From Marispirochaeta aestuarii (GTDB taxonomy: Bacteria > Spirochaetota > Spirochaetia > JC444 > Marispirochaetaceae), in contig NZ_MWQY01000002.1 in assembly GCF_002087085.1 (NCBI RefSeq), positions 1-64,000 of the forward strand: a stretch of 64,000 nt of DNA, in the 5' to 3' direction. Positions 11,439 to 28,500 of the stretch are shown here, in pieces. Positions within the stretch are counted from its first letter, which is position 1; every line of letters begins with the position of its first letter. Both the position numbers and the translations under genes were made by a program. The notes under the pieces were generated by a model, which was not told the DNA's origin, did not search any database, and worked only from the letters and a program-made list of their open reading frames with translations.

Positions 11439-12184
11439 GTGTGGCAGGCAAAACCGTCCTTGTAACCGGGGCGGGAGCCAATATCGGCCGGGCGATAGCT
11501 GAACTTTTCGCCCGGCAGGGGGCCCGGGTGGCCATAACCACCCGATCCAATGCCGGGGGAGGAGAAGCCGCCGCGGAGGCTGTTCGCCGACAGGGCGGAG
11601 AAGCCCTCTTTTTCGCTGCCGACCTGACCGACGAAAACCAGGTTGACCAGCTTTTCCGCCGCGTGGAACAGAGCTTCGGTCCCGTGGAGGTGCTTATCAA
11701 CAACGCCGGCGCGGCCCTTCCCACCCCCTTTCTCGACTCCGAAGTCAGCCAGTGGCGGAATGTTTTCGAGATCAACTTTTTTACCGCCCTGAACTGCTCC
11801 CGCCGGGCAGCCCCTGGAATGATCGACAAAGGCAAAGGGTCAATAATCAATACCGTCTCGGTCCGGGGTTTCGACCATACCGGCCGGGAGGGGATTATGG
11901 CCTACTCCGCGGCCAAGGCTGCCCTGATCAATTTTACCAAGACCCTGGCCAAAGAGCTTGCACCTGGGATCTGCGTAAATGCGGTATCCCCCGGTTTTGT
12001 CCTTACCTCCGCTTACGACACGGCGCCGGAGGAGGTAAAGAAGGGCTTTATCGAATCCACAATGATCAAACGCTGGATACAGCCGGAGGAACTGGCGGAA
12101 GCATACCTCTACCTTGCCGGTCAATCTGCAGCAACCGGGACAGTCCTCGGTGTCGACGGCGGCTTTCTGCTCAAACAGGCCTGA
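11435..12184 (+). CDS. Short-chain dehydrogenase/reductase, copy 1
   Basis: A 249-residue NAD(P)-dependent classical SDR. It starts with GTG overlapping the kinase stop (GTGA), so it is probably translationally coupled. Visible are the nucleotide loop TGAGANIGRAIAE, the NNAGA motif, the serine strand IINTVSVRG and the catalytic pair AYSAAKAAL. VNAVSPGFVLTSAY and GVDGGF complete the fold. It probably oxidises or reduces the polyol or keto-sugar handled by the upstream kinase. Confidence 0.9.
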   Translation: MSVAGKTVLVTGAGANIGRAIAELFARQGARVAITTRSNAGGGEAAAEAVRRQGGEALFFAADLTDENQVDQLFRRVEQSFGPVEVLINNAGAALPTPFLDSEVSQWRNVFEINFFTALNCSRRAAPGMIDKGKGSIINTVSVRGFDHTGREGIMAYSAAKAALINFTKTLAKELAPGICVNAVSPGFVLTSAYDTAPEEVKKGFIESTMIKRWIQPEELAEAYLYLAGQSAATGTVLGVDGGFLLKQA

Positions 12185-12190
12185 GACGCC

Positions 12191-12219
12191 CTGCCTCCCC
12201 TGACCTCATGGGGAGGCAG
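12191..12219 (+). terminator. Strong stem-loop after the kinase/SDR pair, no T-run
   Basis: CTGCCTCCCC pairs perfectly with GGGGAGGCAG around a nine-base loop. There is no following T-run, so it may protect the 3' end of the mRNA or be a weak terminator. The next gene has its own promoter. Confidence 0.5.
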
Positions 12220-12221
12220 GC

Positions 12222-12254
12222 TTGCACACTTCAGTTTTGTACGATATCATACAA
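12222..12254 (+). promoter_or_regulatory. Promoter and TTGTAC/ATACAA palindrome before SDR copy 2
   Basis: TTGCAC (12222-12227) and TATCAT (12245-12250) are 17 bases apart. Overlapping the -10 is TTGTACGATATCATACAA (12237-12254), symmetric at all but two positions (one base pair and its mirror). Its TTGTA half-sites resemble those near the GntR genes, so a second regulator may act here besides the LacI protein. Confidence 0.5.
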
Positions 12255-12269
12255 TTGGAACGATTCAAT
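12254..12269. promoter_or_regulatory. LacI-type operator copy 1 (ATTGGAACGATTCAAT)
   Basis: This 16-mer is identical, on the opposite strand, to the one at 14314-14329 and matches 13 of 16 bases at 14154-14169. It begins four bases after the -10 of the SDR promoter, covering the expected start of transcription. This ties SDR copy 2 to the LacI regulator encoded next to it. Confidence 0.75.
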
Positions 12270-12291
12270 AACCACATTTCTGGAGTTTTTA

Positions 12292-13026
12292 ATGGCGAAA
12301 AAGATAATTATAACCGGTGCCAGTACCGGAATCGGGGCTGAGACTTCCCGTATGCTGGCCCCGGGAAACGAAATCATTGTACACTACTACTCTTCCAAAG
12401 GTCCGGCGGAAGCCGTTGCCGCGGATATCGAAAAAGCGGGAGGAAAGGCCCACCTGCTTCAGGCTGACCTTTCAAAATCCGATGAATGCGAACGCTTTGT
12501 CGCTGAATGCGCCAAACTGTTCCCCGTTGTGGATGTCCTGGTCAACAATGCCGGCGGTCTTATTCGGCGCCAGCCGATAAACGAACTGGACTGGGATTTC
12601 ATGATCGAAACCTTCGCCCTGAATACCTTTTCCACCATGAAGGTTACCTCCCTCTGCGTACCCCTGCTGGAAAAGGCGGAAGATCCGGTTATCATCAACA
12701 TGACCTCCATTGCCATGCGCCACGGTGCCCCCTCCGCCACCCTCTACGGAGCATCCAAGGGAGCCCTGGATACCTTTACCCGCGGGGCCGCCACGGAGCT
12801 GGCACCGAAGAAGATACGGGTAAATGCGGTAGCCCCGGGAGTCATCGAAACCCCCTTCCACGAAAAGGTCTCCACCCCGGAAAAGATGAAGAGCTTCAAG
12901 GAGAATACGCCCCTTAAGCGGAACGGCCGGGCCCGGCATATCGCCCAGGCTGTCAAGTATCTTATCGAGAACGACTTCATGACCGGCGCGACGGTGGATG
13001 TAAACGGCGGGCTGTTCATGTACTAG
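12292..13026 (+). CDS. Short-chain dehydrogenase/reductase, copy 2
   Basis: A 244-residue classical SDR. The start is the ATG at 12292 after TGGAG; the open frame continues upstream only as an artefact. It has TGASTGIG, NNAGG, the serine strand IINMTSIAM and the catalytic LYGASKGAL, then VNAVAPGVIETPFH and DVNGGLFMY. It has its own promoter with a LacI-type operator, so it belongs to the regulon of the convergent LacI gene and its TRAP operon rather than to the upstream kinase operon. It probably oxidises or reduces a sugar, polyol or hydroxyacid. Confidence 0.9.
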   Translation: MAKKIIITGASTGIGAETSRMLAPGNEIIVHYYSSKGPAEAVAADIEKAGGKAHLLQADLSKSDECERFVAECAKLFPVVDVLVNNAGGLIRRQPINELDWDFMIETFALNTFSTMKVTSLCVPLLEKAEDPVIINMTSIAMRHGAPSATLYGASKGALDTFTRGAATELAPKKIRVNAVAPGVIETPFHEKVSTPEKMKSFKENTPLKRNGRARHIAQAVKYLIENDFMTGATVDVNGGLFMY

Positions 13027-13049
13027 GGGTCAGTACAGACCGTAAAAAG

Positions 13050-13087
13050 CCATCGGCGGCAGTATCAGGCGCCGATGGTTTTTTTTT
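13050..13087 (+). terminator. Intrinsic terminator after SDR copy 2, inside the end of lacI
   Basis: CCATCGGCG pairs with CGCCGATGG and is followed by nine T. The stem overlaps the last codons of the convergent LacI gene, whose C-terminal GQKKTIGA is read through it. Confidence 0.88.
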
Positions 13088-14132
13088 GCCCCGGGTTCAA
13101 CTTTTCGGCGGTTCCGCAGGACTCCCGTATCGCAAGCCGGGGAGTTATCAGTATCCGTTCCGGGGTTCCCGGATTCTCAATCAGTTGCAGAAGAAAACCC
13201 GCCGCCCTCCGGGCTATGAGTTCCGGAGGAATGGCAATGGTGGAGAGGGAGGGAGTCCACAGCCTGGCTTCGGAGATATCGTCGAAACCAATGACGCCGA
13301 AATTCCGCCCCGGCTGAATACCCTTTGATCGCAGCCCCAGCATGACCCCCAGGGCTATAATGTCATTATAGCAGAAGGCCGCCGTGGGAGGATCGGGACG
13401 GGACACCAGTTCCCGAATGGCCGCGTAACCTCCCCAGCGGCTCCCCTGGGCGGTGACCATTAATTCCGGATCCGGGCTGTAACCATACTTGTCAAAGGCG
13501 ATCCGGAATCCCTCCAGCCGCTCAGGCCGGGGCGACGAGCCGTCCTCGCCTCCCACAAAAGCGATTCGCCTGTGGCCTGCCGCAAGCAGACGTTCCACCG
13601 CCATGGTCGTACCCACGACGTTATCGGCGCCCACATAATTCCCCGGATAATCGCTGAGATAGCGGTTTATAAATACCGAAGGAACATTACTGTTGACCAG
13701 AGGACCCAGATCTTCCCGGGTGGAAAACCTGGCGGGACTGATAAGCAGCCCCTCCACATTATGTTCGAGGAGGGTGGAGATGGCCTTTCTCTGACGTTCC
13801 GGGCTCTCGGTCGTATTGGCGAGCATAACGACGATTCCCTCCGGTTCGAGACACTCCTCTATTACCGGCACCAGCTCGGCAAAGAAGGGGTTACCCAGAT
13901 CATTGATGAGGACCCCGACAATAAAGGAGCGGCTGGTCCGCAGGTTGGCGGCGGTACGATTGTAGACATATCCAAGGGATTCGCTTGCCGCTTTTACCAG
14001 GGCCGCGGTCTCCTTCGTTATAAGGGGGCTGTTTTTCAGCACAAGAGAGACCGTCGACTTTGAGACCCCCGCCTCCCGGGCGATATCCTTGATCGTCACC
14101 CTTCTCTTGGTTTTTCCTGTCTGCCGGTTCAC
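13065..14132 (-). CDS. LacI family transcriptional repressor
   Basis: A 355-residue regulator. Residues ~12-60 are the LacI helix-turn-helix (TIKDIAREAGVSKSTVSLVLKNSP). The rest is a periplasmic-binding-protein-like effector domain, with VGVLINDLGNPFFAELVPVIEE, FINRYLSDYPGNYVGADNV, RRIAFVGGEDGSSPRPERLEGF and GVIGFDDISEARLWTPSLSTI. It is divergent from TRAP operon 2. The intergenic region holds two copies of a 16-bp operator, one on its own promoter, so autoregulation is likely. A third copy lies on the SDR copy 2 promoter. The effector is probably the substrate of TRAP 2 or a breakdown product. Confidence 0.93.
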   Translation of the reverse strand: MNRQTGKTKRRVTIKDIAREAGVSKSTVSLVLKNSPLITKETAALVKAASESLGYVYNRTAANLRTSRSFIVGVLINDLGNPFFAELVPVIEECLEPEGIVVMLANTTESPERQRKAISTLLEHNVEGLLISPARFSTREDLGPLVNSNVPSVFINRYLSDYPGNYVGADNVVGTTMAVERLLAAGHRRIAFVGGEDGSSPRPERLEGFRIAFDKYGYSPDPELMVTAQGSRWGGYAAIRELVSRPDPPTAAFCYNDIIALGVMLGLRSKGIQPGRNFGVIGFDDISEARLWTPSLSTIAIPPELIARRAAGFLLQLIENPGTPERILITPRLAIRESCGTAEKLNPGQKKTIGA

Positions 14133-14378: not shown

Positions 14379-15392
14379 ATGAAAAAGATTGTTGGACTGA
14401 CTCTCGCACTGATGCTGATCTTCAGCCTTGCTTCCTTTGCGGAAGGCGGAAAAGAGAGCGGAACACCTGAGTCCATTACTCTCGTCGGCGGCGTCATGCT
14501 TCCCAAGGGACATGTATACTATCAGGCAATGGAAAAGTTTGTTGAGCTCCTCGATGAGTACTACACCGGTCCCATCGAACTGAAGTACGAACTTCACCAC
14601 TCCGGCTCCATCGGAACCGAAAAGGACATGTTCGAGTTCATGATGCAGGGAGTTTCCGTAGACTTTGCGGTTGTATCCCCCGCGTGGGCCGCAACCTGGG
14701 ACAAAACAGCCCCCATCATCGACGCACCCTTCCTTTTCAGGAGCATCGAGCACTGGGAACAGTCCCTTGAAGCCGGCGCCCTCGACTCTATCGCGGAAAC
14801 CATTCGGAAAAAAGGCGTCCGTTTCATCGGTTACGGCGGAGGCGGAGCCCGCAGCCTGATCCTGAATCAGCCGGTCAGCAGCCTCGAAGACTTCGGCAAG
14901 ATCGACCTGCGGGTCCAGGGTTCCCCCCTGCACGCCGCGGTATTCGGCGCCATCGGCCTGAACCCCACTCCCCTGGACTATACCGAGGTATATAACGCCA
15001 TAAAAACCGGTGTTGTCGACGGTCTCGAGAACGAACCCGCCGGACTTGAGGGCATGAAATTCTACGAGGTCGCTCCCTACTATGCTCTTTCCGAGCATCA
15101 GATCACCACCCGTATCCTCTGCTTCTCCGAGTCTAGACTTCAGAGCTTTCCCCAGGACCTGCAGGATGCCATTATAAAGGCCGGACTCGACGCCGGACGC
15201 TGGCACCGCAAGGCGGAAGTGGCTCTGGGACAGCAGATCATAGACAAACTGGTAGCCGGCCATGGCCTCAAGGTAATCGAGTTTACCAAAGCGCAGAAAG
15301 ACGAGATGGCCCGCAGGGCAATGCCGGAAGTAATGAAGTACGCCGAAGAAGTCGGTGCCACCGATATCGTCGAAACAATCCAGAATCTCTAG
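14379..15392 (+). CDS. dctP: TRAP transporter binding protein (DctP family), system 2
   Basis: A 337-residue exported solute-binding protein. The signal peptide (MKKIVGLTLALMLIFSLASFA) is followed by EGGKESG. Conserved DctP regions include YELHHSGSIGTEKDMFEFM, FGKIDLRVQGSPLHAAVFGAIG with the ligand Arg, and YTEVYNAIKTGVVDGLENEPAG. The ATG has CAGGAGG upstream. It is the first gene of the LacI-controlled operon and is followed by a strong hairpin. Its ligand is likely the compound broken down by the downstream CoA-transferase, hydratase and glycyl-radical-type enzyme. Confidence 0.93.
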   Translation: MKKIVGLTLALMLIFSLASFAEGGKESGTPESITLVGGVMLPKGHVYYQAMEKFVELLDEYYTGPIELKYELHHSGSIGTEKDMFEFMMQGVSVDFAVVSPAWAATWDKTAPIIDAPFLFRSIEHWEQSLEAGALDSIAETIRKKGVRFIGYGGGGARSLILNQPVSSLEDFGKIDLRVQGSPLHAAVFGAIGLNPTPLDYTEVYNAIKTGVVDGLENEPAGLEGMKFYEVAPYYALSEHQITTRILCFSESRLQSFPQDLQDAIIKAGLDAGRWHRKAEVALGQQIIDKLVAGHGLKVIEFTKAQKDEMARRAMPEVMKYAEEVGATDIVETIQNL

Positions 15393-15415
15393 AGATTAAG
15401 CTTTTCACCTTACCC

Positions 15416-15443
15416 GCAGGCCGGAGGACTCCGGCCTGCTTTT
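15416..15443 (+). terminator. Stem-loop after dctP 2 (attenuating hairpin)
   Basis: GCAGGCCGGA pairs perfectly with TCCGGCCTGC around GGAC and is followed by TTTT. As in the other transporter operons, it sits between the binding-protein gene and the membrane-subunit genes. Partial termination or mRNA protection is inferred. Confidence 0.75.
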
Positions 15444-15467
15444 CCATTAATTCAGAGGAGCAAACCG

Positions 15468-16025
15468 ATGCCCTTGAAACTGTTTGATCTGTACGCGAAA
15501 TTCCTTATCCGCGTAATGATTGTCCTGATGTTCATCCTGCTGGGCGCCGTCGCCCTGACTGTTGCAGGCCGCTACATACCCTTTATTCCCCGCTTCCTGT
15601 GGACCCTGGAAGTCACCAACATATCCCTTATCTGGATGGTTTTTGTGGGCTCGGTAGTCGGCCTCAGGGAATCCCGGCACTTCTACATCGATATCTTCGC
15701 CGGCGGAGTCCCTCCATGGTTCGAAATGTTTCTAAAAATTCTCAACTATTTTGTTACGCTGACTGTCACCTATGTATTTGTCCGTTACGGATACCGCTTT
15801 TTTATGCAGTGGGGACTGATCCAGACCTCTGAGCTTACCGGTATAAATCTTGGTTTTCTCTATGCCTCGGTCCCCTTTGCCGGCGTATCATGGCTGATAT
15901 TCTTGATTGAGAGGTTTTACCACGACTTTATAAAAAAGGACCAGACGGAAGAACACCACATGGCCGATTCCTACCAGGTCCATCACGAAGATGAAGACAC
16001 TAAAGAAGGAGAAACGGACAAATGA
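15468..16025 (+). CDS. dctQ: TRAP transporter small permease (DctQ family), system 2
   Basis: A 185-residue inner-membrane subunit with four hydrophobic segments, the first at VMIVLMFILLGAVALTVAG. The family signature LWTLEVTNISLIWMVFVGSVVGLRESRHFYID is present, with Leu in the usual first-Trp position. The last ~35 residues form a long acidic, His-rich tail (DQTEEHHMADSYQVHHEDED), which is unusual for DctQ. The next gene's ATG overlaps its stop. GAGGAG precedes the start. Confidence 0.9.
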   Translation: MPLKLFDLYAKFLIRVMIVLMFILLGAVALTVAGRYIPFIPRFLWTLEVTNISLIWMVFVGSVVGLRESRHFYIDIFAGGVPPWFEMFLKILNYFVTLTVTYVFVRYGYRFFMQWGLIQTSELTGINLGFLYASVPFAGVSWLIFLIERFYHDFIKKDQTEEHHMADSYQVHHEDEDTKEGETDK

Positions 16026-17326
16026 CAGCTGGAACAGTCGCCGCGATAATGTTCATACTGCTTATCGTCCTCATTATTTTACGCGTTCCGGTCAGTTTTA
16101 CCCTGGCCTTCGCCGTTGTACCTATTCTTTTGCTCACTCCCAGGGTCTCGCCGCTCATGCTGCTGCAGCGCATGATGGTTCAGTACGGGTCCTTTCTGCT
16201 ATTATCGATACCCTTCTTCTTACTGGCCGCTGTCATCATGAACGAGGCCAAGATCACCGACCGGCTGATCAGGTTCTCCCGCTCCATGGTGGGACCCCTT
16301 CCCGGCGGTCTTGGCCACGTTAATGTTGCGGTAAGTATGCTCTTTGCAGGTATCTCCGGTTCCTCCAATGCGGATGCCGCCGGTATCGGTTCCGTACTTA
16401 TTCCCGCCATGGAGAAAGAGGGCTACGACAAGAACTTCACCGTAGCCGTTACAGCCTGTTCGGCGGTAATGGGAAACATCATTCCCCCAAGTATTACCAT
16501 GGTTGTGTGGGGCGGGGTCATGAGTACCTCCGTTTCCGGGCTCTTTCTGGCCGGCTTTGTTCCCGGCGTAATGATCGCCCTCTTTCAGATGGCCCTGGTA
16601 CTCTACTTTGCCCTCAAGCGGGGATATCCCCGGGACGCGCGATTCAGCATAAAGGAATTTATTCAGAGCTTTCGCGGAGCAATCCTGGCCCTGGTTACAC
16701 CGCTGATTATCGTCGGCGGTATCGTCTTCGGAATCGTTACCCCCACCGAAGCTTCCATGGTGGCGGTTATCTACTCCCTTTTCCTGGGTATGTTCATCTA
16801 CAAAACCGTCTCCTTCAACAAGTTTGTCGGTCTCATGCTGGATACCGCCAAGCTGGCTTCCATCGTGCTCTTTGCCGTAGGAAGCGCCTCCATATACGGC
16901 TGGGTCCTGGCCTACTACAAAATCCCGAACTTCCTGGTTGACGTTCTCGGCGGTATTACGACCACACCCTCCCTGATGCTCATGATCTTTGTGGGAATTT
17001 TCCTGCTGGTGGGAACCTTCATGGACTCCGTTCCCGCCATCGTCATCCTCGGGCCCCTGCTCGCTCCCATTGCAGAGCATGTCGGGATACACCCCCTTCA
17101 CTTCGCCATCGTGGGAGTTGTCTCCCTGGCCTTCGGACTGGTAACCCCTCCCTACGGGCTCTGCCTGCTGATATCCAGCGAGATCGCCGGGATTAACGCC
17201 ATGCGTCCCCTCAAGGAGGTCGGACTCTTCCTGCTTTCCATGCTGGCGGTATTGCTTCTGATCATATTCTTTCCGTCCCTGACCCTGGCTATTCCCCAGG
17301 CCTTCATGCCGGAACTCTTTTTATAG
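16022..17326 (+). CDS. dctM: TRAP transporter large permease (DctM family), system 2
   Basis: A 434-residue multi-pass permease. Family landmarks are LPGGLGHVNVAVSMLFAGISGSS, FVPGVMIALFQM, GIVTPTEASMVAVIYSLFLG and FGLVTPPYGLCLLISSE. It overlaps the dctQ stop by four bases and ends seven bases before the CoA-transferase ATG, so transport and catabolism are one transcript. Length and hydrophobic pattern are typical. Confidence 0.95.
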   Translation: MTAGTVAAIMFILLIVLIILRVPVSFTLAFAVVPILLLTPRVSPLMLLQRMMVQYGSFLLLSIPFFLLAAVIMNEAKITDRLIRFSRSMVGPLPGGLGHVNVAVSMLFAGISGSSNADAAGIGSVLIPAMEKEGYDKNFTVAVTACSAVMGNIIPPSITMVVWGGVMSTSVSGLFLAGFVPGVMIALFQMALVLYFALKRGYPRDARFSIKEFIQSFRGAILALVTPLIIVGGIVFGIVTPTEASMVAVIYSLFLGMFIYKTVSFNKFVGLMLDTAKLASIVLFAVGSASIYGWVLAYYKIPNFLVDVLGGITTTPSLMLMIFVGIFLLVGTFMDSVPAIVILGPLLAPIAEHVGIHPLHFAIVGVVSLAFGLVTPPYGLCLLISSEIAGINAMRPLKEVGLFLLSMLAVLLLIIFFPSLTLAIPQAFMPELFL

Positions 17327-17332
17327 ACTGTT

Positions 17333-18859
17333 ATGAAAGATAAAATACTGAGCGCCGAAGCCGCCGTCGCCCTCATAGGGGACGGCGCACGGGTTGCCCT
17401 CCACGGTTCGGGGGGCGGCATCTGTGAACCCACCCTGCTGTTGAAGAAGCTGGGAGAACGCTTTCAGAAAAACGGAAACCCAAAGGGAATAAGCATTGTC
17501 CATTCCACGGGCATAGGCAACAAGGAGGGCACCGGAATCGACCTTATCGCCTTTGCGGGCCTTGTCAAGCGTGACATTGCAGGACATTTCGGGATGTCCC
17601 CCAAAATGGGAGAGCTGATCCTGGGAAACCAGGTGGAGGCCTATAACTTTCCCCAGGGGGTACTCTCCCATATGTTTCACGCCGTGGCTGCCAGAACACC
17701 GGGGGTCATTACCAAGATAGGCCTCAACACCTACGTGGACCCGCGCCTCGAGGGCGGAAAGGCCAACGATCTCGCCACGGAAGACCTGGTAAAGGTCATA
17801 GAACTGGATGGCGAAGAGTGGCTCTTCTTCCCCCGCTTTGAGTTCGACTTTGCCTTTGTCCGGGGAACCACCGCCGACCTTAACGGAAATATAACCAATG
17901 AGGAAGACGGGCCCTTTCTGGAGGGGATGGCAATCGCCCAGGCAGTCAAAAACTGCGGAGGGACGGTTATAGCCCAGGTCAAGTATCTGGCTGAGAACGG
18001 AACCCTGGACCCGCAGCAGGTACGTATCCCGGGAATCTACGTCGATCATATCGTCGTGGATCCCGAACAGACCCAGACCTGTCTGCACAGCTACGAACCC
18101 TCCTTTGCCGGGAAGGTCCGGATTCCCCTTACAAGGATGGAACCCCTGTCCCTGGGACCGAAGAAGATTATTGCCCGGCGGGCGGCGAAGGAACTCTTCG
18201 AAGGAGCCATCGTAAACCTTGGATATGGCGCACCTGACGGAGTGGCAGCCGTGGCTTCCGAAGAAGGCATCCTGGACAAGTTTACCCTGACCGTCGAACA
18301 GGGATCCATCGGCGGACGTCCCGCGGGGGGCGTAGTCTTCGGCACCGCCTACAACCCGGAGGCCATAATTCCCATGGACGCCCAGTTCACATTCTACGAC
18401 GGCGGCGGGCTGGATCTGGCCTATCTTGGCATGGCCCAGGTCGATCAGCACGGGAACGTCAACTCCAGCCGGGTCGGACGCATGCTCGCAGGCTGCGGAG
18501 GCTTCATCAATATTACCCAGAACGCAAAAAAGGTGATCTTCTGCGGGACCTTTACTGCCAAGGGGCTCAAGTGCTCCGTGGGAGACGGCAAAATCAGCAT
18601 CGACCAGGAAGGTTCGGTACGGAAATTCGTGGACCGGGCGGCCCAGATCACCTTCAGCGGTGATTACGCCGGCAGCCTCGGACAGCCGGTACTCTATGTC
18701 ACGGAACGGGCGGTTTTTTCCCGCAGCCCGGAAGGGCTGATGCTGGAGGAGATTGCCCCGGGAGTCGACCTTGAACGGGACATTCTGGCACATATGGATT
18801 TCAAGCCCCTTATTTCACCGGATCTGAAAGAGATGGACCCGGACTTCTTCCGGGAGTGA
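17333..18859 (+). CDS. Propionate/acetate-type CoA-transferase (fused class I)
   Basis: A 508-residue fused alpha-beta family I CoA-transferase, which moves CoA between acyl-CoA (often acetyl- or propionyl-CoA) and a free carboxylic acid. LHGSGGGICEPTLLLKKLGERF is in the first domain. The second domain holds the active-site Glu322 in LTVEQGSIGGRPAGGVVFG, which forms the glutamyl-CoA thioester in the family, then DAQFTFYDGGGLDLAYLGMAQVD. Length fits Pct-type enzymes. The following enoyl-CoA hydratase suggests that the imported acid, or a product of the glycyl-radical-type enzyme, is activated to its CoA ester and hydrated or dehydrated. No clear ribosome-binding site shows beyond the dctM end, so coupling is likely. 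Confidence 0.9.
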   Translation: MKDKILSAEAAVALIGDGARVALHGSGGGICEPTLLLKKLGERFQKNGNPKGISIVHSTGIGNKEGTGIDLIAFAGLVKRDIAGHFGMSPKMGELILGNQVEAYNFPQGVLSHMFHAVAARTPGVITKIGLNTYVDPRLEGGKANDLATEDLVKVIELDGEEWLFFPRFEFDFAFVRGTTADLNGNITNEEDGPFLEGMAIAQAVKNCGGTVIAQVKYLAENGTLDPQQVRIPGIYVDHIVVDPEQTQTCLHSYEPSFAGKVRIPLTRMEPLSLGPKKIIARRAAKELFEGAIVNLGYGAPDGVAAVASEEGILDKFTLTVEQGSIGGRPAGGVVFGTAYNPEAIIPMDAQFTFYDGGGLDLAYLGMAQVDQHGNVNSSRVGRMLAGCGGFINITQNAKKVIFCGTFTAKGLKCSVGDGKISIDQEGSVRKFVDRAAQITFSGDYAGSLGQPVLYVTERAVFSRSPEGLMLEEIAPGVDLERDILAHMDFKPLISPDLKEMDPDFFRE

Positions 18860-18869
18860 GGACCTTTTC

Positions 18870-19646
18870 ATGATTACCACTGTAAAAATCGAACTGCGCG
18901 CCCCGGTGGCGCGCATCATTTTCAGCGTTGATCCGCCGGGAAAACCCCCGGCGGTGGATTATGATGTTATCGACCAGCTGGAGGAGGCTGTAAAAGGTAT
19001 CGCCTCCGCAGGTCCCGATATTCGTCTGGTCCTTGTGGAGAGTTCGGAACCCAGATATTTTGTAGTCGGGGCCAACCTGAAGGCCCTGCAGCAGATCGAC
19101 AGCCAGAGTATCCGACCCTGGGTACGCCGGGGACACGATGTATTCAACATGCTGCAGGAACTGGAGCTTCCGGTCATCGCTGTTGTGCGCGGCTTTGCCG
19201 GCGGAGGCGGACTTGAGCTGGCCCTGGCCTGCGACTTTATCTATGCCGCCGATAATGCCCGTTTCGCCCTGCCGGAAGCAGGGCTGGGTCTTATTCCCGG
19301 CTGGGGAGGGAGTCACCGCCTTCCCTTAAGGATCGGCGCAGCCCGGGCCAAGGAGATGGCCTTCTCCGCCCGGCCGATCGATGCCGCAACTGCCTATGAC
19401 TGGGGACTGATCAACTGGTACGGACCGGAAGAGGAGCTTCAGCAAAAGCTCGAGGAGATCTCCGCAAGCATCAGCGCAAACAGCCGGATATCCGTGGCCA
19501 TGGAAAAACAGCTTATCAATTCCGCTGACAGTCCGGACAATCCCCGCATGAAATTCGAAGAGGCCGCCGCCTCCACCGCCGCCATGAGTTCCAGCGATAC
19601 CTCCCGCAGACTTGAGGAGTTTTTCGAAAAACGGCGGAAAAAATAG
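18870..19646 (+). CDS. Enoyl-CoA hydratase/isomerase family protein
   Basis: A 258-residue crotonase-fold enzyme that adds or removes water on an acyl-CoA. Both catalytic glutamates of true hydratases are in place: one in AGGGGLELALACD and one in ALPEAGLGLIPGWGGSHRL. The oxyanion-hole region is near YFVVGANLKAL, where the usual FCAGADL is altered. The N-terminus (TTVKIELRAPVARIIFSVDPPGKPPAVDYDVIDQL) carries a short insert. It follows the CoA-transferase by ten bases and probably acts on its CoA product. Confidence 0.88.
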   Translation: MITTVKIELRAPVARIIFSVDPPGKPPAVDYDVIDQLEEAVKGIASAGPDIRLVLVESSEPRYFVVGANLKALQQIDSQSIRPWVRRGHDVFNMLQELELPVIAVVRGFAGGGGLELALACDFIYAADNARFALPEAGLGLIPGWGGSHRLPLRIGAARAKEMAFSARPIDAATAYDWGLINWYGPEEELQQKLEEISASISANSRISVAMEKQLINSADSPDNPRMKFEEAAASTAAMSSSDTSRRLEEFFEKRRKK

Positions 19647-19672: not shown

Positions 19673-22054
19673 ATGTCGTATCTGGACAACCCCATCCGGC
19701 TGCAGGAAGTCCGCAGTTTCTACCTTGAACGTCTTCTCAAGCCGAAGCTTACATCTGAACGGGCGGATATCGTGACCAGGTCCTATGCCCGAACCGAAGG
19801 TTCCCATCCCATAACCCGGCGGGCACAGGCCCTTAAGGACATCCTTGCCGAAATGAGCATCTACATCAAACCCTGGGAACTCCTGGCGGGCAATCTTGGA
19901 CCGGAACCCGTCTCCGCTCCGGTATTTCCCGAGGGCGGTGCCGATTTTATCCTCGAAGAGATGGACAGCTACGGCACCCGGCCGGGAGACAAGTTCGAAG
20001 TCAGCGAAGAGACAAAAACAGAGCTCCGGAGGATCCTTCCCCTGTGGAAAGGAAAAACCCTGAAGGAGTACGGCCTCTCCCTGATGCCGGAAGGTCCGGT
20101 ACGGATGCGGGAAGCCGGGGTATTCTCCGCGGAAAACATGCTCACCTGCGGTACCGGACACTTTCTGCCGGATTATACCAAGGTACTGGAGCAGGGCTTT
20201 CGCGGCATAAGCGAACAGGCTAAAGCAGCCCTTATGACCCTGGACCTGAGCCGGGAAGAGGGATACGAAAAACGCATCTTTTACGAGGCCGTGCTGACCA
20301 TCTGTGCCGCCGTCAGAGACTTCTCCCTCCGTTACGCCGAGCTTGCCGATTCCATGGCCGCTGAAGAAAAGGAGGAAGAACGGCGAAGGGAACTGAAAAA
20401 AATCGCGGAGGTCTGCCGCAGGGTGCCCTGGGAGCCCGCCGCAGGTTTCGCCGAAGCCGTCCAGAGCCTCTGGTTCACCCACCTGGTCTGTTATATCGAC
20501 TCCAACGGTTACGGCGTAACCCTGGGACGCTCCGCCTCCTGTCTGTATCCCTGGTATCGATCAAGTATTGCTTCCGGAGAGATCGACAGGGAAGGAGCGC
20601 TGGCTCTTCTTGTAAGTCTCTTTTTCAAGACAAACGACATCCTGAAGCTCTACAACAACAACGCCGCCCAGAATTACGGCGGCTTTCCCGTGGGACAGCC
20701 GGTCCAGCTGGGGGGAATCAACGCCGCCGGAGAGGACGATACCAACGAACTGAGCTTCCTCTTTCTGGAGGCGGAGAAAAAGGTAAAACTTTATCAGCCG
20801 GATATCGGCTTTCTGTGGACCGAAAAGATCAATCCCGGGTTTTTCCGGGCGGCAACGGAACTTGTGGCAACAAACTCAAAGCCCAAGTTTTTCAACTACC
20901 ATGTGGGTTCCGCCATGTACCGCCAGGCGGGATTATCGGAAGAGACTGCCCAAAAGGACTGGGCCTTTATCGGCTGCGTCGAATACGGAGTCCCGGGTAA
21001 AACCTGGACCTGGGCCGACGCCGCCATGTTCAACCTGGCAAAATGCCTTGAACTGGCCCTTAACGACGGGATAGACCCGGTAAGCGGCAGCCGCCTCGGG
21101 CCCCAGACAGGAAGCCCGGAGGACTTCAAGGATTTCAGCCAGTTTCTCTCCGCCCTGCAGCGGCAGATTGCCTACATGTTTGACCTGACGGTTCAGGGCA
21201 TAACCGCTTTACAGGTTGCCCATAAACACTGCTGGCCGGAACCCTACGAATCTCTGCTTGTAGACGGCTGCATGCAGAGCGGCAGGGAGGTCAACCAGGG
21301 CGGCGCCACATCCTACCACACAGGCGTCCAGTTCGTGGGATTCGCCACGGTGGTGGATTCACTGCTTGCGATAAAACACTTTGTGTTCGAGCACCGGAGC
21401 ATAAACTTCCGGGACCTGGTGGACAACCTTGGAGAAAATTTCAGGAATAATGAGGTACTCCGTGTACGTCTTTTGCGGGAGACCCCCCGGTTTGGTATGG
21501 ACAGGGATGATATAAACTCCCTGGCGGGAGAGGTTTTCACCTACTGCTGCGACACCGCAGGCCGTTACCGGGATATATGGGGAGGGCTCTATACTGCAAG
21601 TCTCTACAGCCTCACGGCCCATGTAGGTTTCGGCGCCCGGGTCGGGGCGACTCCGGACGGCCGGATGGCCTTCTCTCCCCTATCCGATGCCAGTTCACCA
21701 TCTCAGGGACTGCAGAACGGCTCCGTGACCGAGATCTTCACCACCCAGTCGAAGCTCCCTCACCACAAGGCCATAAACGGTACCCTGCTGAACATGAAGC
21801 TCAACAAGAAACTGCTGTCCGGCCCGGAAGGAACGGCCAGGCTGCAGAACCTTATAAGCACCTACTTCAAGATGGGAGGCTTTCATGTTCAGTTCAATGT
21901 CGTGGACGTGGAGGTTCTCAAGGATGCCCAGGCGAATCCGGACAAGTATCCAGATTTCCTGATCCGGGTCGCCGCTTACGTTACCAACTGGAATCAGCTG
22001 AGCCGGGATGTTCAGAACGAGATAATATCCCGGGCCGAGATGGAGAGTTTTTAG
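19673..22054 (+). CDS. Glycyl-radical-family enzyme (PFL/dehydratase type) with Gly-to-Ala at the radical site
   Basis: A 793-residue member of the pyruvate formate-lyase/glycerol dehydratase superfamily. Family landmarks are VGDRHPITR-like GSHPITRRAQAL near the start, Cys435 and Glu437 in FIGCVEYG (thiyl and acid/base positions), TWTWADAAMFNLAK, and GFHVQFNVVDVEVLKDAQANP near the end. The radical loop, normally RVxGY, reads LIRVAAYV, so the glycine is Ala768 (codon GCT at 21974-21976). Everything around it aligns. Family members add or remove water, or split C-C, C-N or C-S bonds, on small alcohols and acids. The substrate class cannot be fixed. An activase gene follows directly. Whether this protein is active is open. 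Confidence 0.85.
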   Translation: MSYLDNPIRLQEVRSFYLERLLKPKLTSERADIVTRSYARTEGSHPITRRAQALKDILAEMSIYIKPWELLAGNLGPEPVSAPVFPEGGADFILEEMDSYGTRPGDKFEVSEETKTELRRILPLWKGKTLKEYGLSLMPEGPVRMREAGVFSAENMLTCGTGHFLPDYTKVLEQGFRGISEQAKAALMTLDLSREEGYEKRIFYEAVLTICAAVRDFSLRYAELADSMAAEEKEEERRRELKKIAEVCRRVPWEPAAGFAEAVQSLWFTHLVCYIDSNGYGVTLGRSASCLYPWYRSSIASGEIDREGALALLVSLFFKTNDILKLYNNNAAQNYGGFPVGQPVQLGGINAAGEDDTNELSFLFLEAEKKVKLYQPDIGFLWTEKINPGFFRAATELVATNSKPKFFNYHVGSAMYRQAGLSEETAQKDWAFIGCVEYGVPGKTWTWADAAMFNLAKCLELALNDGIDPVSGSRLGPQTGSPEDFKDFSQFLSALQRQIAYMFDLTVQGITALQVAHKHCWPEPYESLLVDGCMQSGREVNQGGATSYHTGVQFVGFATVVDSLLAIKHFVFEHRSINFRDLVDNLGENFRNNEVLRVRLLRETPRFGMDRDDINSLAGEVFTYCCDTAGRYRDIWGGLYTASLYSLTAHVGFGARVGATPDGRMAFSPLSDASSPSQGLQNGSVTEIFTTQSKLPHHKAINGTLLNMKLNKKLLSGPEGTARLQNLISTYFKMGGFHVQFNVVDVEVLKDAQANPDKYPDFLIRVAAYVTNWNQLSRDVQNEIISRAEMESF

Positions 22055-22059
22055 GCGCC

Positions 22060-23001
22060 GTGGATAATACCGTGCACAACGAAATCAGGGGGACAGTTTT
22101 TAACTGCGAAACCTTCAGCCTCCACAACGGACCGGGTATACGGACGACCCTTTTTCTCAAGGGCTGTCCCCTGCGCTGCCTGTGGTGCGCCAACCCTGAA
22201 AGCTGGAGTATGGAAGCCGAAGTCAGCTACAACCGGGAACTCTGCATCCCTGAATGCCACGAATGCGAGAAGGTTGCCGGAAGCGGCCTTCTTGAACGGG
22301 ACCGTGAGGGAAAAATTGTCATACCTCCCGCAGCCCCGCGAAGCGATCCTGCCCTTATAGCCGCTGCCCGGGCCTGCCCCGCCCGGGCGCTTTCGGTTGA
22401 GGGTTACACCATATCCGTGGACGAAGCCGCAAAGCTGCTCTGCAGGGACCGGCCTTTTTTCGAGGAATCCGGAGGCGGAGTTACCCTCTCCGGGGGTGAA
22501 CCTCTTCTGCAGCCCGAATTTTCGGCTGCGCTCCTGGGACGCCTGAAAACAGAGGGAATTCACACAGCCCTGGATACCTGCGGAGATGCTGCCCCGGAAG
22601 TATACAGGGAAGTTAGCAGTCTTGCAGACCTCATCCTCTTCGATTTCAAGGCCGCCCACAGCGGACTCCACAGGGAATGCACCGGACAATCCAACGAGAG
22701 GATTCTGGTGAACCTGGAGCAGACTGCCGCGGAACGTCCGGAGCAGCTGCGGGTACGTATTCCCTTTATTCCCGGACTCAATGGAACCGAAGGGGAGTTA
22801 TCTGCCATGGCCAGGGTATTAAAGGGACTGGGGATATCCCGGGCGGAACTTCTTCCTTACCATCGCCTGGGAATTCACAAGTACCGGCAGCAGGGCAAGG
22901 AATATACTTTGGGATCAGTGGAAATCCCGGGTTCGGAAATCCTGAAGACAGCAGTCCGTATCTGCAGGGACCTGGGAGTCGAACTGCATATACAGCACTA
23001 G
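22060..23001 (+). CDS. Glycyl-radical enzyme activating protein (radical SAM)
   Basis: A 313-residue radical SAM activase. FSLHNGPGIRTTLFLKGCPLRCLWCANPES carries the Cx3Cx2C [4Fe-4S] motif. CIPECHEC with a later ACPARAL suggests one auxiliary iron-sulfur cluster. SGGGVTLSGGEPLLQPEF is the SAM-binding GGE region, and DLILFDFKAAHSGLHRECTG follows. The GTG at 22060 is preferred because GGAG lies just upstream and it follows the enzyme stop at once; GTG at 22072 is an alternative. All cofactor residues are intact, which makes the missing glycine in its apparent partner more striking. Confidence 0.9.
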   Translation: MDNTVHNEIRGTVFNCETFSLHNGPGIRTTLFLKGCPLRCLWCANPESWSMEAEVSYNRELCIPECHECEKVAGSGLLERDREGKIVIPPAAPRSDPALIAAARACPARALSVEGYTISVDEAAKLLCRDRPFFEESGGGVTLSGGEPLLQPEFSAALLGRLKTEGIHTALDTCGDAAPEVYREVSSLADLILFDFKAAHSGLHRECTGQSNERILVNLEQTAAERPEQLRVRIPFIPGLNGTEGELSAMARVLKGLGISRAELLPYHRLGIHKYRQQGKEYTLGSVEIPGSEILKTAVRICRDLGVELHIQH

Positions 23002-23007
23002 AAGAGC

Positions 23008-23682
23008 CTAGTTCTTAACCTGGGACTCCTGGACCATATTCCCCTGGATTACCAGGGTGAGGACCCGGATTTTACTGTTCTCGATATGCCGGGTAAGCAG
23101 TTCCGAGGCTTTCTCGATATCCCGGATACAGAGGGCGTCTATCAGCTCTATATGCTCCTGGATAGTGACATCCTTGGAAAACTGCTGCCTCAGGCTCAGC
23201 TCCCAGAAGGTCTGGGTAAGCCGGTACAGCTGATCCAGCATACGGATAAGCCGCCGCCTGCCGCTGGATTGAATAAGATAGGAGTGAAAATACCCGTCCA
23301 CCCGTGCATGCTCCTGGAAGTCGAGACTGTCCTTCAACCCCAGGATAAGGGCCTTCATTTCAAGCAGCTTCTGTATGCTCAGAGAGTTTGCCGCCCTTCG
23401 CAGGGCCAGAGACTCGAGTTCCCTGCGCAGTTCGTAAATATCCTCGAGATCGTCCGCGGTAAAGGGAAAAATACGGGCTCCCCTCTTGGGAAGAATCTCT
23501 ATCAGGTGGTCCTGTTCGAGATTCTGCAGTACACTGCGCACCGGGGATCTGCTGACATTGAACTCCCGGGCCAGGAGGTCCTCCCGCAACCAGGTATCTT
23601 CAGGATATTCGTTTTGTATTATCCTGTTGAAAAGGGTGGTGTAAATTTCATGCCGAGTCGTTTTAGTATTCTTGTTTTCCAT
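23008..23682 (-). CDS. GntR family regulator, FCD subfamily, paralogue A
   Basis: A 224-residue repressor-type protein. Residues ~8-75 form the winged helix (IYTTLFNRIIQNEYPEDTWLREDLLAREFNVSRSPVRSVLQNLEQDHLIEI in pieces). The rest is an all-helical FCD effector domain with HARVDGYFHSYLIQSSGRRRL and TIQEHIELIDALCIRD. It is closely related along its length to the regulator at 32742 (shared IYTTLF, FPFTADDLEDI, SGRRRLI-like and HIxNSKIR stretches). It converges on the activase gene and is divergent from TRAP operon 3, whose promoter holds TTGTA/TACAA sites. Confidence 0.9.
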   Translation of the reverse strand: MENKNTKTTRHEIYTTLFNRIIQNEYPEDTWLREDLLAREFNVSRSPVRSVLQNLEQDHLIEILPKRGARIFPFTADDLEDIYELRRELESLALRRAANSLSIQKLLEMKALILGLKDSLDFQEHARVDGYFHSYLIQSSGRRRLIRMLDQLYRLTQTFWELSLRQQFSKDVTIQEHIELIDALCIRDIEKASELLTRHIENSKIRVLTLVIQGNMVQESQVKN

Positions 23683-23924: not shown

Positions 23925-23957
23925 CAAATACTAAATCTTGTGGAAAAGGAGTTTTTC

Positions 23958-25118
23958 ATGCAAGGAAAAAAATGGCTAGGTAAACTTTCCATTTCTCTCT
24001 TGGTAGTGTTGTCTCTTCTTGCCGTTTCATGCGCCAAAGAAGAGCCTGCCCAGGCTGCAGCCCCCGCGGCTCCCGCCGAATCTCAGCAGGCAGCATCCTC
24101 TGAGGCCATCCCCGACATGATCGATATGACCATGCCTTCGAGTACGGTTACCCTCAGACTGGCTTACGATGACCCCACCCTCTGGCCCAAGCAGGCAAAT
24201 GTTCCCGACCCCGAGCATGCTCAGGCACTGCTCTTCAAGGACTACGTGGAAAGCCAGACCGGCGGAGCTGTCAAGATTGACCTCTACGGTGCCGGCCAGC
24301 TCGGAACCTACCGGGAAACCCTGGAAATGGTTCAGCAGGGCTCCATGGACATCAACATTGGTACCGGATCTCTCGGTTCTTTCTTTGATCCCTTCCAGAT
24401 CTTCACCATCCCCTACCTCTTCAGCTCAGACGACATCGCCGTCGGCTACTTCGAGCGGAGCGAATGGTGGGCAGACCTGATGGATCAGATGGAAGACGAA
24501 ACCGGCATGAAGTACCTCGGTATGGGTCAGAACGGCTGGAGAAACTTCACCAACAACGTACGTGAAATCCGCAAACCCGAAGACCTCAAGGGCATCAAGT
24601 TCCGCGTTATGCAGAGCCCCGTATACGTGAAGATGATCGAGTCCATGGGCGGAAGCGCTGTTCCCATCGCCTGGAACGAGCTCTACACCGCACTGCAGAC
24701 CGGTGTTGTTGACGGCGAAGAGAACCCCATCTCCTCCATCGCCCTGGGTAAACTCCAGGAAGTTCAGAAATACCTGACCATGGACGGCCACGTATGGTCC
24801 GAAAACGTCATGGTTATGAACGCTGCGAAGTTCAACGACATGCCCGTAGGCGTTCAGCAGATCCTGGTTCAGGGCGGAATGCTGGCAGCTCGTGCCAACA
24901 ACGTTGCAGAGAGAATGGTATCCAATATCGTCAAGTTCGAAGAAGTTGCCAAGCAGATGCAGGTTTACTTCCCCACCGCCGGCGAAAAGGCTGAATTCCG
25001 CAAGGTTTCCCAGCCCGCGGTTATCGAATACCTGGAAGGCGAGCTTGGAGAAGACATGGTTAACGGCTTCCTGACCAGTGTTCAGCAGATGGAAGCAGAA
25101 CTCGGTTGGAGACGCTAA
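23958..25118 (+). CDS. dctP: TRAP transporter binding protein (DctP family, lipoprotein), system 3
   Basis: A 386-residue solute-binding protein. The ATG at 23958 is used because AAGGAG lies just before it. The signal ends in the lipobox LLAVSC, so it is probably lipid-anchored. A low-complexity Ala/Pro/Glu linker (QAAAPAAPAESQQAASSE) follows, then the DctP domain with YGAGQLGTYRETLEMVQQGSMD, FRVMQSPVYVKMIESMGGSAVPIAWNELYTALQTGVVDGEENP. The lipid anchor and linker set it apart from the other two binding proteins in the window. A hairpin separates it from dctQ. Confidence 0.93.
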   Translation: MQGKKWLGKLSISLLVVLSLLAVSCAKEEPAQAAAPAAPAESQQAASSEAIPDMIDMTMPSSTVTLRLAYDDPTLWPKQANVPDPEHAQALLFKDYVESQTGGAVKIDLYGAGQLGTYRETLEMVQQGSMDINIGTGSLGSFFDPFQIFTIPYLFSSDDIAVGYFERSEWWADLMDQMEDETGMKYLGMGQNGWRNFTNNVREIRKPEDLKGIKFRVMQSPVYVKMIESMGGSAVPIAWNELYTALQTGVVDGEENPISSIALGKLQEVQKYLTMDGHVWSENVMVMNAAKFNDMPVGVQQILVQGGMLAARANNVAERMVSNIVKFEEVAKQMQVYFPTAGEKAEFRKVSQPAVIEYLEGELGEDMVNGFLTSVQQMEAELGWRR

Positions 25119-25165
25119 TCTCTTCTTGCCTTTTTTCTACCGACACCCCTTAAGGGTGTTGCGAT

Positions 25166-25199
25166 GGCAGTCCGCTCTCACAGGCGGGCTGCCGTCTTT
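25166..25199 (+). terminator. Stem-loop after dctP 3 (attenuating hairpin)
   Basis: GGCAG-T-CCGC pairs with GCGG-G-CTGCC around TCTCACAG and is followed by GTCTTTA. A smaller ACACCC/GGGTGT palindrome lies just upstream. This is the third TRAP operon in the window with a stem-loop at this exact place. Confidence 0.65.
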
Positions 25200-25237
25200 A
25201 TCTAATCTACTTCGCTATCAATTGGAGATAATCACCA

Positions 25238-25753
25238 ATGGTAAAATATCTGAAACAAGCCAGTGACATTGTGCATGTGGTCACCAAGTGGTGGCTCTTT
25301 GTCTATGTCCTGTCCGTAACTATTCTGGCGATTGTCGGCGTCTTCTTCCGCGCCATCGGGAACTCCCTCTCGTGGAACGAGGAACTTATGCGCTGGATAC
25401 TCATCGGTATCGGTTACATCGGAGCTGCGGTGGCCCTCAAGGAACGGAGCCACATAGGCATTGAGTTTTTCATTACCCGGATGAAGCCCAAACTCCGCAA
25501 GTTCTCCATTATCCTCGGATACCTTACAATCGTCCTTTTTCTGCTTGTTGTACTTATTTACGGTTACAAATCCGCAGACGTCGCCTGGCGACAGAAGGGG
25601 TCGATTCTGCGAGTTCCCATGTACTGGGTTAAACTAAACCTGCCCCTGGGCTCACTGTTCATGCTCGTTCACATGACCTACTTCACCGTCGGTTTCTTTA
25701 AGGAGAAAGGCGATGACCGTGAGTACCTGCTGAGCGGCGGACACGACTTTTAA
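25238..25753 (+). CDS. dctQ: TRAP transporter small permease (DctQ family), system 3
   Basis: A 171-residue inner-membrane subunit with four hydrophobic segments: WWLFVYVLSVTILAIVGVFF, WILIGIGYIGAAVAL, YLTIVLFLLVVLIYGY and LPLGSLFMLVHMTYF. The conserved SWNEELMRWILIGIGYIGAAVALKERSHIGIE block is present. GGAGATAATCACC precedes the ATG. It ends 17 bases before dctM. Confidence 0.91.
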   Translation: MVKYLKQASDIVHVVTKWWLFVYVLSVTILAIVGVFFRAIGNSLSWNEELMRWILIGIGYIGAAVALKERSHIGIEFFITRMKPKLRKFSIILGYLTIVLFLLVVLIYGYKSADVAWRQKGSILRVPMYWVKLNLPLGSLFMLVHMTYFTVGFFKEKGDDREYLLSGGHDF

Positions 25754-25770
25754 GGGAGCCGGAGAATTTT

Positions 25771-27066
25771 ATGAATATTGCAGTATACACAATGGTTTTC
25801 CTTTTTGTAATTCTTCTTGTAATAGGCGTACCCATCGCCTTTGTACTGGGTCTGGTACCCCTTATCTACCTCCTCTTCTTCAAAGGTCTTCCCCTTATAG
25901 CCATTGCCTCGAAACTCTACGGAGGGATCGATAACTACGTTCTGTTGGCCCTGCCCTTCTTTATCCTCGCCGGTAACATAATGAACAACACGGGAATAAC
26001 GAAGGACCTGGTCAACTTTGCGCGTCTTCTGGTCGGTCGTGTCCGGGGTGCCCTGGCGCAGGTAAATATCGTCGTCAGTATCGCCTTTGCGGGTCTCACC
26101 GGAGCGGCTGTTGCGGACACCGCGGCCATCGGCTCCATTCTGATTCCCGCCATGAAGGAAGAGGGCTATTCCGCAGAATACTCTGCGGCTGTTACCACGG
26201 CCTCCTCGGTTATCGGACCGATCATTCCCCCCAGCATAATCATGGTAATTTATGCCTCGGTTACCGGAGAATCCGTAGGAGCCCTGTTCATGGGCGGCTT
26301 CCTCCCCGGTCTCGCGGTGGCCCTCTCCCTGATGATCCTGGCCTATATTTACGCCATCAGGCTGAACCATCCGAAGCGGACAGAACGGATCAGCGCCAAA
26401 GAAGCCTTCTACATAATCCGTCGATCCGTTCTTGCAATGATGGTCCCCCTTATAATCATCGGTGGTATTCTTACCGGTGTCTTTACCCCCACGGAAGCTG
26501 CAGCTGTTGCCTGTCTCTACGCTTTTCTGGTAGGCGTGTTCTATTACAAAACCCTTACCGTGAAGAACATGATCGACAGCCTCATTGACGCAGGCCGGGT
26601 TTCTGCAACCATCCTGCTGATCATCTCCGCAAGCCAGCTCTTCAGCATGGTACTGACCATCGAGAAGATCCCCGAGCATATTGCCGAGGTGATGACCTCC
26701 GTCATTACCAACAAGTATGTCTTCCTGCTGGTTGTCAACGTGCTGTTCTTCTTTATGGGAATGGTTATGGAGATATCCGCCAGCGTTATCATGCTCACCC
26801 CCATCCTGCTGCCTCTGGCCATGGAATACGGTGTACATCCCCTGCACTTTGCCCTGATCATGCTGGTCAACCTGAATATCGGCCTTACCACGCCGCCTGT
26901 TGGGGTATGTCTCTTTACGGCTGTGCCGATTGCCAAGTGTTCCGTGGAAAAGATGGTCCCCAAGGTAATGCCCTTTGTAATCGCCGAGATGATCGCTGTT
27001 CTGTTTATTACCTATGTTCCGGAGATCACCCTCTTCCTGCCGAGACTCACGGGCTTTATCGAATAG
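25771..27066 (+). CDS. dctM: TRAP transporter large permease (DctM family), system 3
   Basis: A 431-residue multi-pass permease with VNIVVSIAFAGLTGAAVADTAAIGS, FLPGLAVALSLMIL, GVFTPTEAAAVACLYAFLVG and NLNIGLTTPPVGVCLFTAVPI. It completes TRAP system 3 and ends at a strong two-way terminator shared with the convergent larA-type gene. GGGAGCCGGAG provides the ribosome-binding site. Confidence 0.95.
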   Translation: MNIAVYTMVFLFVILLVIGVPIAFVLGLVPLIYLLFFKGLPLIAIASKLYGGIDNYVLLALPFFILAGNIMNNTGITKDLVNFARLLVGRVRGALAQVNIVVSIAFAGLTGAAVADTAAIGSILIPAMKEEGYSAEYSAAVTTASSVIGPIIPPSIIMVIYASVTGESVGALFMGGFLPGLAVALSLMILAYIYAIRLNHPKRTERISAKEAFYIIRRSVLAMMVPLIIIGGILTGVFTPTEAAAVACLYAFLVGVFYYKTLTVKNMIDSLIDAGRVSATILLIISASQLFSMVLTIEKIPEHIAEVMTSVITNKYVFLLVVNVLFFFMGMVMEISASVIMLTPILLPLAMEYGVHPLHFALIMLVNLNIGLTTPPVGVCLFTAVPIAKCSVEKMVPKVMPFVIAEMIAVLFITYVPEITLFLPRLTGFIE

Positions 27067-27149: not shown

Positions 27150-28454
27150 TTACAGAAGATTCCCTTCAGCATCGAACTCCATCTCTTTCGGGTCCTCGAG
27201 GATCTCGATATCCGGGTTCTTTTTTGCCTCATCCAGCATGGATTCGGAAATCCAGATCTCATCCACGTGGGAGGAGTTCCGTATTCTCAAGACTCTGGGA
27301 TTGTCCACACCGTTACCCGTGCGCACATACATGGCGGCCTGAATGGCGAGACGGTCGGTTTTCAGTACCATGGGCATACGGACGGTTATGGCAACTCTGG
27401 CGGTCAGGGCGTTGGGATAGCCCGCATCGAAGTCCGCCTGATCAAAAACCTTCCTGGTTGTGTAATTGGCCATGCCTATTCCGATACAGTTACCGTGGGT
27501 TGCCTCGGAAAGGTTCAGTACTACATACTCCTCCACCCTGGGGGGACCCGAGGCAAACTCGGTACAGTAACTTCCCGTAATATTGGGATCCATACCGTCT
27601 CCGGAATGGTTCTTTCCTATCTCATCCACCACCATGATGTCGAGCTTGTCAAAAAAGATCCGCGCCATCTTTTCCTTGGCTTCCTTAAGAAGCTTCGGCT
27701 CCTCCTCGGGGATCTCTTCTGGGGTAAGGGCGATAATGCGGTTGGTCTCGTCATGGGCATTCTCGATGATGGAGAGCCCGAAGAGAATATTGGCATTCTT
27801 CAGAATAGCCATTCCGTAGGCTACAACATTCTCCGCCATCTTGCGGAAACCCTGGCTGTGACAGGCCTCGGCCCCCTGGTGCTTGGCAACTCCAATAGCC
27901 ATCATCTTGAGCATGCCGCTCTCGTAGGGCCCCCTGAAAGCCGTATGGGCTTTTATTCTTCCCACCAGGACTATGCCGTCAGCCTCCGAGGCATACTTGT
28001 CAATATAAACAGGGCGCCCGTCCTCAAGGGTGGCCACCTGCACGACCTCCATGGAGGCCTTTATCGGGGCTCCCACATATTCCTCGGTAACGCCGAAACC
28101 TTCGATCATTTCCCGTTGACCTTCCGCGGTTCCGCCGCCGTGGCTCCCCATGGCGGGGAAGACAAAGGGTTTTGCGCCCAGTTCTTTAAGGGCCGCAACG
28201 GTCTCCCTGATGATCAGGGCGATATTGGCAATACCGCGGCTGCCGCAGGTAACCGCAACGGTCATTCCCGGTTTTATGGTTCCCGCGATCTTCTGCTGGT
28301 TTATCTGCTTCTTTATTTCCCCTGGAATATCTTCCAGTACGTCGTCATTCAGTTTCTGACGGACCTTGACCATCCTTGGAAGCGGGGTACCGCCAATCAT
28401 TCGTTGGACAACACCATTCCGATCCCAGACACTTTCGCGCAGATTAGTACTCAT
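27150..28454 (-). CDS. larA: LarA-type nickel-dependent racemase/epimerase family protein
   Basis: A 434-residue protein of the lactate racemase family (DUF2088 domain plus C-terminal domain). The start is the ATG at 28454, since GAGGGAG lies eight bases upstream. Residues matching the known LarA active site are Arg73 in TCGSRG, His105 in MGSHGGG, His170 in IKAHTAF, Lys183 in GPYESGMLKMM and His199 in AEACHS. These hold the nickel-pincer cofactor and act as acid/base groups in the family. Homologues racemise or epimerise various 2-hydroxyacids, so D/L-lactate is only one option. The cofactor-making genes larB, larC and larE are not in the window. It is divergent from the aldehyde:ferredoxin oxidoreductase operon. 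Confidence 0.85.
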   Translation of the reverse strand: MSTNLRESVWDRNGVVQRMIGGTPLPRMVKVRQKLNDDVLEDIPGEIKKQINQQKIAGTIKPGMTVAVTCGSRGIANIALIIRETVAALKELGAKPFVFPAMGSHGGGTAEGQREMIEGFGVTEEYVGAPIKASMEVVQVATLEDGRPVYIDKYASEADGIVLVGRIKAHTAFRGPYESGMLKMMAIGVAKHQGAEACHSQGFRKMAENVVAYGMAILKNANILFGLSIIENAHDETNRIIALTPEEIPEEEPKLLKEAKEKMARIFFDKLDIMVVDEIGKNHSGDGMDPNITGSYCTEFASGPPRVEEYVVLNLSEATHGNCIGIGMANYTTRKVFDQADFDAGYPNALTARVAITVRMPMVLKTDRLAIQAAMYVRTGNGVDNPRVLRIRNSSHVDEIWISESMLDEAKKNPDIEILEDPKEMEFDAEGNLL

Positions 28455-28500
28455 TCCACACACTCCCTCTAGTACAGGTATTCGATTATGTTAAAATACA

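Follow-up and report, generated by a model that had tools for sequence, protein, structure and literature searches.

A probable alanyl radical enzyme with an altered activase in Marispirochaeta aestuarii

The stretch of DNA analyzed here (the window; 64,000 nucleotides from the start of contig NZ_MWQY01000002.1 of the anaerobe Marispirochaeta aestuarii) encodes a 793-residue radical enzyme of the PFL2/glycerol dehydratase family in which alanine occupies the position of the radical glycine (19673–22054, forward strand). Its retained catalytic residues, its dedicated activase and its conservation in a second species, read by analogy with characterized homologs, suggest that it is a working alanyl-type radical enzyme, to which we assign a probability of roughly 0.85. 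Homologs of glycyl radical enzymes (GREs) with other residues at the radical position have been described as aminoacyl radical enzymes, comprising 17 sequences with Ala, the alanyl radical enzymes (AREs), 21 with Ser and 71 with Thr (Fu et al., J Am Chem Soc 2024, PMC11528403). The Ala enzyme of Desulfoscipio geothermicus (DgARE), combined with its own activase, gave a 1:3:3:1 EPR quartet, which was assigned to a stable alpha-carbon alanyl radical at A762; the reaction is known for none of the 17 AREs of 2024, which form a monophyletic clade in the tree of that study (PMC11528403).

These findings bear on how the present gene is to be interpreted. The original prediction, made from the window alone, had recognized a GRE that is intact except for its radical glycine, which is substituted, and that has an activase beside it; this part of its interpretation stands. 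It further held that Ala cannot carry the radical, a premise contradicted by the EPR results on alanyl radical enzymes, and an alanyl radical was absent from the four explanations that it offered: a dead enzyme, a spare radical domain, a non-radical route and a sequencing error (PMC11528403).

The altered radical site in an otherwise complete enzyme

The canonical GRE fingerprint RVxG[FWY] is replaced by RVAAY at residues 765–769 (21965–21979, forward strand; codons CGG GTC GCC GCT TAC), with Ala768 encoded by GCT at 21974–21976. A fresh reading of the open reading frame and its codons agreed with the site as it had first been described and placed. The remainder of the protein is that of a typical family member. 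Both Pfam models are matched above their cut-offs (PFL-like, PF02901, 603 bits; Gly_radical, PF01228, 86 bits), the radical domain is complete according to the latter, and the alignment to glycerol dehydratase 1r8w reaches nearly to the end of the protein. The thiyl-radical loop Cys435-Val-Glu437 is retained (20975–20983, forward strand, coordinates computed from residue numbers), as had been proposed, and both Cys435 and Glu437 are invariant in an alignment of 26 GRE homologs.

Searches of 60 relatives recovered one true ortholog, which is from a congener (genome G002, locus L005/L054) and is 88% identical over all 793 residues. It too lacks the fingerprint Gly and reads RVAAY, with codons CGG GTA GCA GCC TAC. 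GCT and GGT differ by a single base, and a sequencing or assembly error at 21975 had accordingly been raised as an explanation, with inspection of close homologs as the check. The congener genome (6 contigs) is a separate assembly and encodes Ala with a different synonymous codon, GCC, and neighboring loop residues and the activase are altered in step with Ala768. That two assemblies should share one error and yet differ in the synonymous codon is not credible, so that this explanation can be regarded as ruled out and the Ala as fixed in both species.

The substitution is rare among the relatives sampled. The distinct GRE C-termini in all fetched loci comprise 51 with Gly and only 2 with Ala, those of M. 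aestuarii and its congener, and an Ala-type enzyme was seen in these two species only. No ortholog was found in a second congener (G001) or in the family's other genome (G003), nor did sampling 394 genomes from the class and 392 from the phylum add another. Among genome contigs, the search for other Ala enzymes yielded four distant relatives, all with Gly (RVSGY in one and RLYGF in three; L034 and L035–L037), and none was found among viral contigs. Plasmid matches were all below 60% identity.

Selection and evolutionary history

The case for a dead or decaying protein is that a residue long regarded as indispensable is gone. Against it, both species have the enzyme at full length and in the same gene order, and comparison of the two orthologs gave a dN of 0.07 and a dS of about 1.5, which is saturated, for a dN/dS of 0.05. 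A Gly-type GRE from the same two genomes, used as a control, is less conserved (81% identity, dN/dS 0.065); the Ala enzyme is thus under constraint at least as strong as that on a Gly-type GRE. Decay, one of the original options, is therefore strongly disfavored and is considered very improbable.

The Ala pair is isolated in the tree, on a long stem of 1.42 changes per site with support of 100/100; the tree covers relatives from this phylum only, so that it does not reveal the true sister group. Of 49 positions with a single residue throughout the other 24 aligned GREs, 10 changed along this stem and were then held (D288A, D409Y, K606R, R636W, G673A, S691T, L762F, G768A, S770V, and F773W); four of these fall within the radical loop or next to it. 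Other lineages show 0 to 4 changes at such positions, the exception being one long-branched outlier with 9. The Ala lineage looks to have been rebuilt and then maintained, rather than to be decaying.

Predicted structure and active site

An AlphaFold model of the Ala enzyme, built from a 26-row alignment, has a mean pLDDT of 90.8 and a pTM of 0.92. Foldseek placed 1,2-propanediol dehydratase 9rcp (TM-score 0.96, 1.4 Å) and glycerol dehydratase 1r8w (TM-score 0.95, 1.5 Å) at the top of its ranking, and VIA-align agreed with a Z of about 52; both comparisons report on fold and not on function. In the sequence alignment, His163, Cys435, Glu437, Asp449, and Tyr645 match glycerol dehydratase residues His164, Cys433, Glu435, Asp447, and Tyr640. 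The substrate site differs from that of glycerol dehydratase, with Tyr280-Gly281 replacing His281-Ser282 and Phe338 replacing Tyr339. Judged from these alignments, the elimination machinery appears to be present, while the substrate pocket appears to be different.

A radical domain supplied in trans

GrcA supplies a spare radical domain for oxygen-damaged PFL in E. coli, and the original prediction had suggested that a separate small glycyl radical protein of this GrcA/YfiD type might serve the Ala enzyme in the same way. This in-trans role is a precedent for such a rescue, and the C-terminus of the Ala enzyme matches GrcA models weakly. A search with PF01228 nevertheless found no free-standing GrcA-type domain in the M. 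aestuarii genome (97% complete, 78 contigs) or in that of the congener, which extends to both genomes the earlier statement that the window holds no GrcA-like gene. Matches above the cut-off were full-length GREs only, three in M. aestuarii and four in the congener, and two extra matches in M. aestuarii score below 15 bits. As the Ala enzyme also has a complete radical domain of its own, and as the genome search yielded no candidate gene, rescue by a GrcA-type protein is regarded as even less probable than decay.

The activase and its Asp-to-Asn change

The radical SAM activase is encoded immediately downstream of the enzyme (22060–23001, forward strand, from a GTG start at 22060) and matches TIGR02494 above the cut-off. 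Its CX3CX2C motif consists of C35, C39, and C42 (numbered, as below, in the translation from 22063), consistent with the claim that the cluster-binding Cys are present, and alignment with the congener activase revealed further conserved Cys at 61, 65, 68, and 105 in both species. Between the two species, the activases share 64% identity at a dN/dS of 0.11–0.12. A control activase pair drifts similarly (69% identity, dN/dS 0.107), so that fast drift of activases is usual in these genomes.

These observations also bear on the idea that the protein has retained the GRE fold yet uses no radical, acting for instance as a two-electron lyase or in binding or regulation, the activase being kept for some other reason. 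Such a change of function would fit the absence of the canonical Gly, the alteration of ten otherwise invariant positions and a likewise altered activase motif. It would leave unexplained the retention of the radical Cys and of a dedicated CX3CX2C activase under purifying selection, with a dN/dS like that of the control activase, and Ala-type homologs do form radicals (PMC11528403). A non-radical role is accordingly considered improbable, albeit less so than decay or rescue in trans, and an alanyl-type radical enzyme remains the preferred reading.

DGxGxR is a motif of GRE activases, in which Asp16 of PFL-activase anchors the central glycine; its hydrogen bond to residue 734 was present in about 80% of simulation frames, and Asn38 acts as a second anchor (PMC9326890). 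The present activase reads NGPGIR in both species, and alignment to 3c8f places its Asn codon, AAC (22126–22128, forward strand), at the position of Asp16; this Asn is residue 22, or 23 when counted from the GTG start. The counterpart of Asn38 is conserved as Asn44. Across all fetched loci, Asp occupies this position in 78 activases and Asn in two, exactly those beside the Ala enzymes; one further match with G at this position does not resemble an activase. Within the M. aestuarii genome, the activases adjoining the two Gly-type GREs carry Asp. A nucleotide pattern encoding the Asn form occurred only in the M. aestuarii genome among 179 genomes of the phylum, a sample that did not include the congener.

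PFL-activase removes the pro-S hydrogen of Gly, and in L-Ala the hydrogen sits at the pro-R place, so that, as noted in PMC11528403, an approach from the opposite face is required; the main text of that paper makes no mention of the DGxGxR position of activases. The loss of Asp at the anchor is a plausible part of a switch to the other hydrogen face, and the activase change might be a partner mutation that lets the activase take the L-Ala hydrogen from the face opposite to that of Gly. We offer the partner mutation as a speculative idea that is on balance unlikely to be correct in this form. Because the pairing of Asn with Ala represents one evolutionary event, it provides a lead and not a statistical proof, and the Asn could alternatively reflect weakened glycine anchoring. 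NGPGIR is possibly a new activase signature. If the partner-mutation idea is true, NGxGxR marks alanyl radical systems, and the Asn change accounts for part of the dedicated specificity left open in PMC11528403. The paired change yields a testable idea of how an activase reads Ala versus Gly, and which hydrogen face it attacks.

Genomic context and a possible pathway

The gene order around the enzyme is kept in both species: DctP-DctQ-DctM, CoA-transferase, crotonase, enzyme, activase, GntR, DctP-DctQ-DctM, and LarA-type isomerase. Both TRAP transporters are of the carboxylate type. The first (14379–17326, forward strand) consists of DctP (14379–15392; PF03480 and synteny), DctQ (15468–16025), and DctM (16022–17326), the latter two assigned from sequence and order. 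It is followed in the enzyme operon by a fused CoA-transferase of 508 residues (17333–18859, forward strand; PF01144, syntenic and 91% identical in the congener) and an enoyl-CoA hydratase family protein of 258 residues (18870–19646, forward strand; PF00378, 89% identical). Both catalytic glutamates of the latter are visible by inspection, at the positions expected for this family. A divergent GntR/FCD regulator (23008–23682, reverse strand; PF07729 and PF00392, 91% identical) separates the enzyme operon from the second TRAP transporter (23940–27066, forward strand; 94–97% identical), which comprises DctP (23940–25118; PF03480), DctQ (25238–25753), and DctM (25771–27066). The conserved neighbor beyond it encodes a nickel-pincer (LarA-type) isomerase of group 22 (27150–28463, reverse strand; NF052515 above the cut-off, and synteny), which we infer to be linked to the pathway of the enzyme.

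Several features of the surroundings are recorded here as separate observations. In the congener, the DctP of the first transporter (L054, 4236–5247) is split by a frameshift, reflecting either decay or an assembly error, while the window copy is intact. Upstream of the operon, a module at 10089–14132 encodes an FGGY sugar kinase, two short-chain dehydrogenases and a LacI-type regulator, and similar genes adjoin the operon in the congener. On the far side, 28854–32751 holds an aldehyde:ferredoxin oxidoreductase gene and then an overlapping gene for a 723-residue protein in which an alpha-like and a beta-like half of pyruvate dehydrogenase E1 are fused; another GntR regulator adjoins.

In the mechanism envisaged, the adjacent activase would cleave SAM and remove the alpha-hydrogen of Ala768, leaving, by analogy with the EPR results on DgARE, a stable alpha-carbon alanyl radical. 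The Ala768 radical would then take a hydrogen atom from Cys435, and the resulting thiyl radical would start an eliminase-type reaction. Its substrate would be a small carboxylate brought in by the TRAP transporters, from which water or some other leaving group departs, and the product may be processed by the CoA-transferase and the enoyl-CoA hydratase. Read in the simplest way, the operon content suggests a tentative pathway, somewhat short of an even chance, in which a radical lyase acts on a carboxylate taken up from outside and bearing a hydroxyl or other substituent, and the product is converted to a CoA thioester and hydrated. Conservation of the operon with its transporters, CoA-transferase and hydratase in two species means that the substrate can be hunted via the pathway.

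Comparison with known systems

The closest parallel is with the AREs as exemplified by DgARE. In both systems Ala replaces the radical Gly (here as RVAAY, in the window and the congener), the radical Cys in the middle of the protein is conserved (Cys435, invariant in 26 sequences), a CX3CX2C radical SAM activase is encoded adjacently (22060–23001), and the GRE fold is nearest to that of GRE eliminases (here best matched by propanediol and glycerol dehydratases). This likeness was judged by the published criteria of sequence, fold and gene context. On these features, set against the published AREs by description, the 793-residue enzyme very probably belongs to the ARE class, of which it is a probable new member.

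The closest solved structures are those of B12-independent glycerol dehydratase (1r8w) and 1,2-propanediol dehydratase (5i2g, 9rco), at 35–37% identity and TM-scores of 0.95–0.96. The Cys, Glu, His163, Asp449, and Tyr645 shared with these enzymes are retained in the alignment, whereas the radical site is Ala here and Gly there and pocket residues differ. PFL has the radical-loop architecture of the Ala enzyme in common, but it has a Cys pair and Gly734; its activase (3c8f, 3cb8) shares the fold of the present activase, with Asp16 there and Asn here. The PFL system also has GrcA as a spare part, whereas none was found in this genome.
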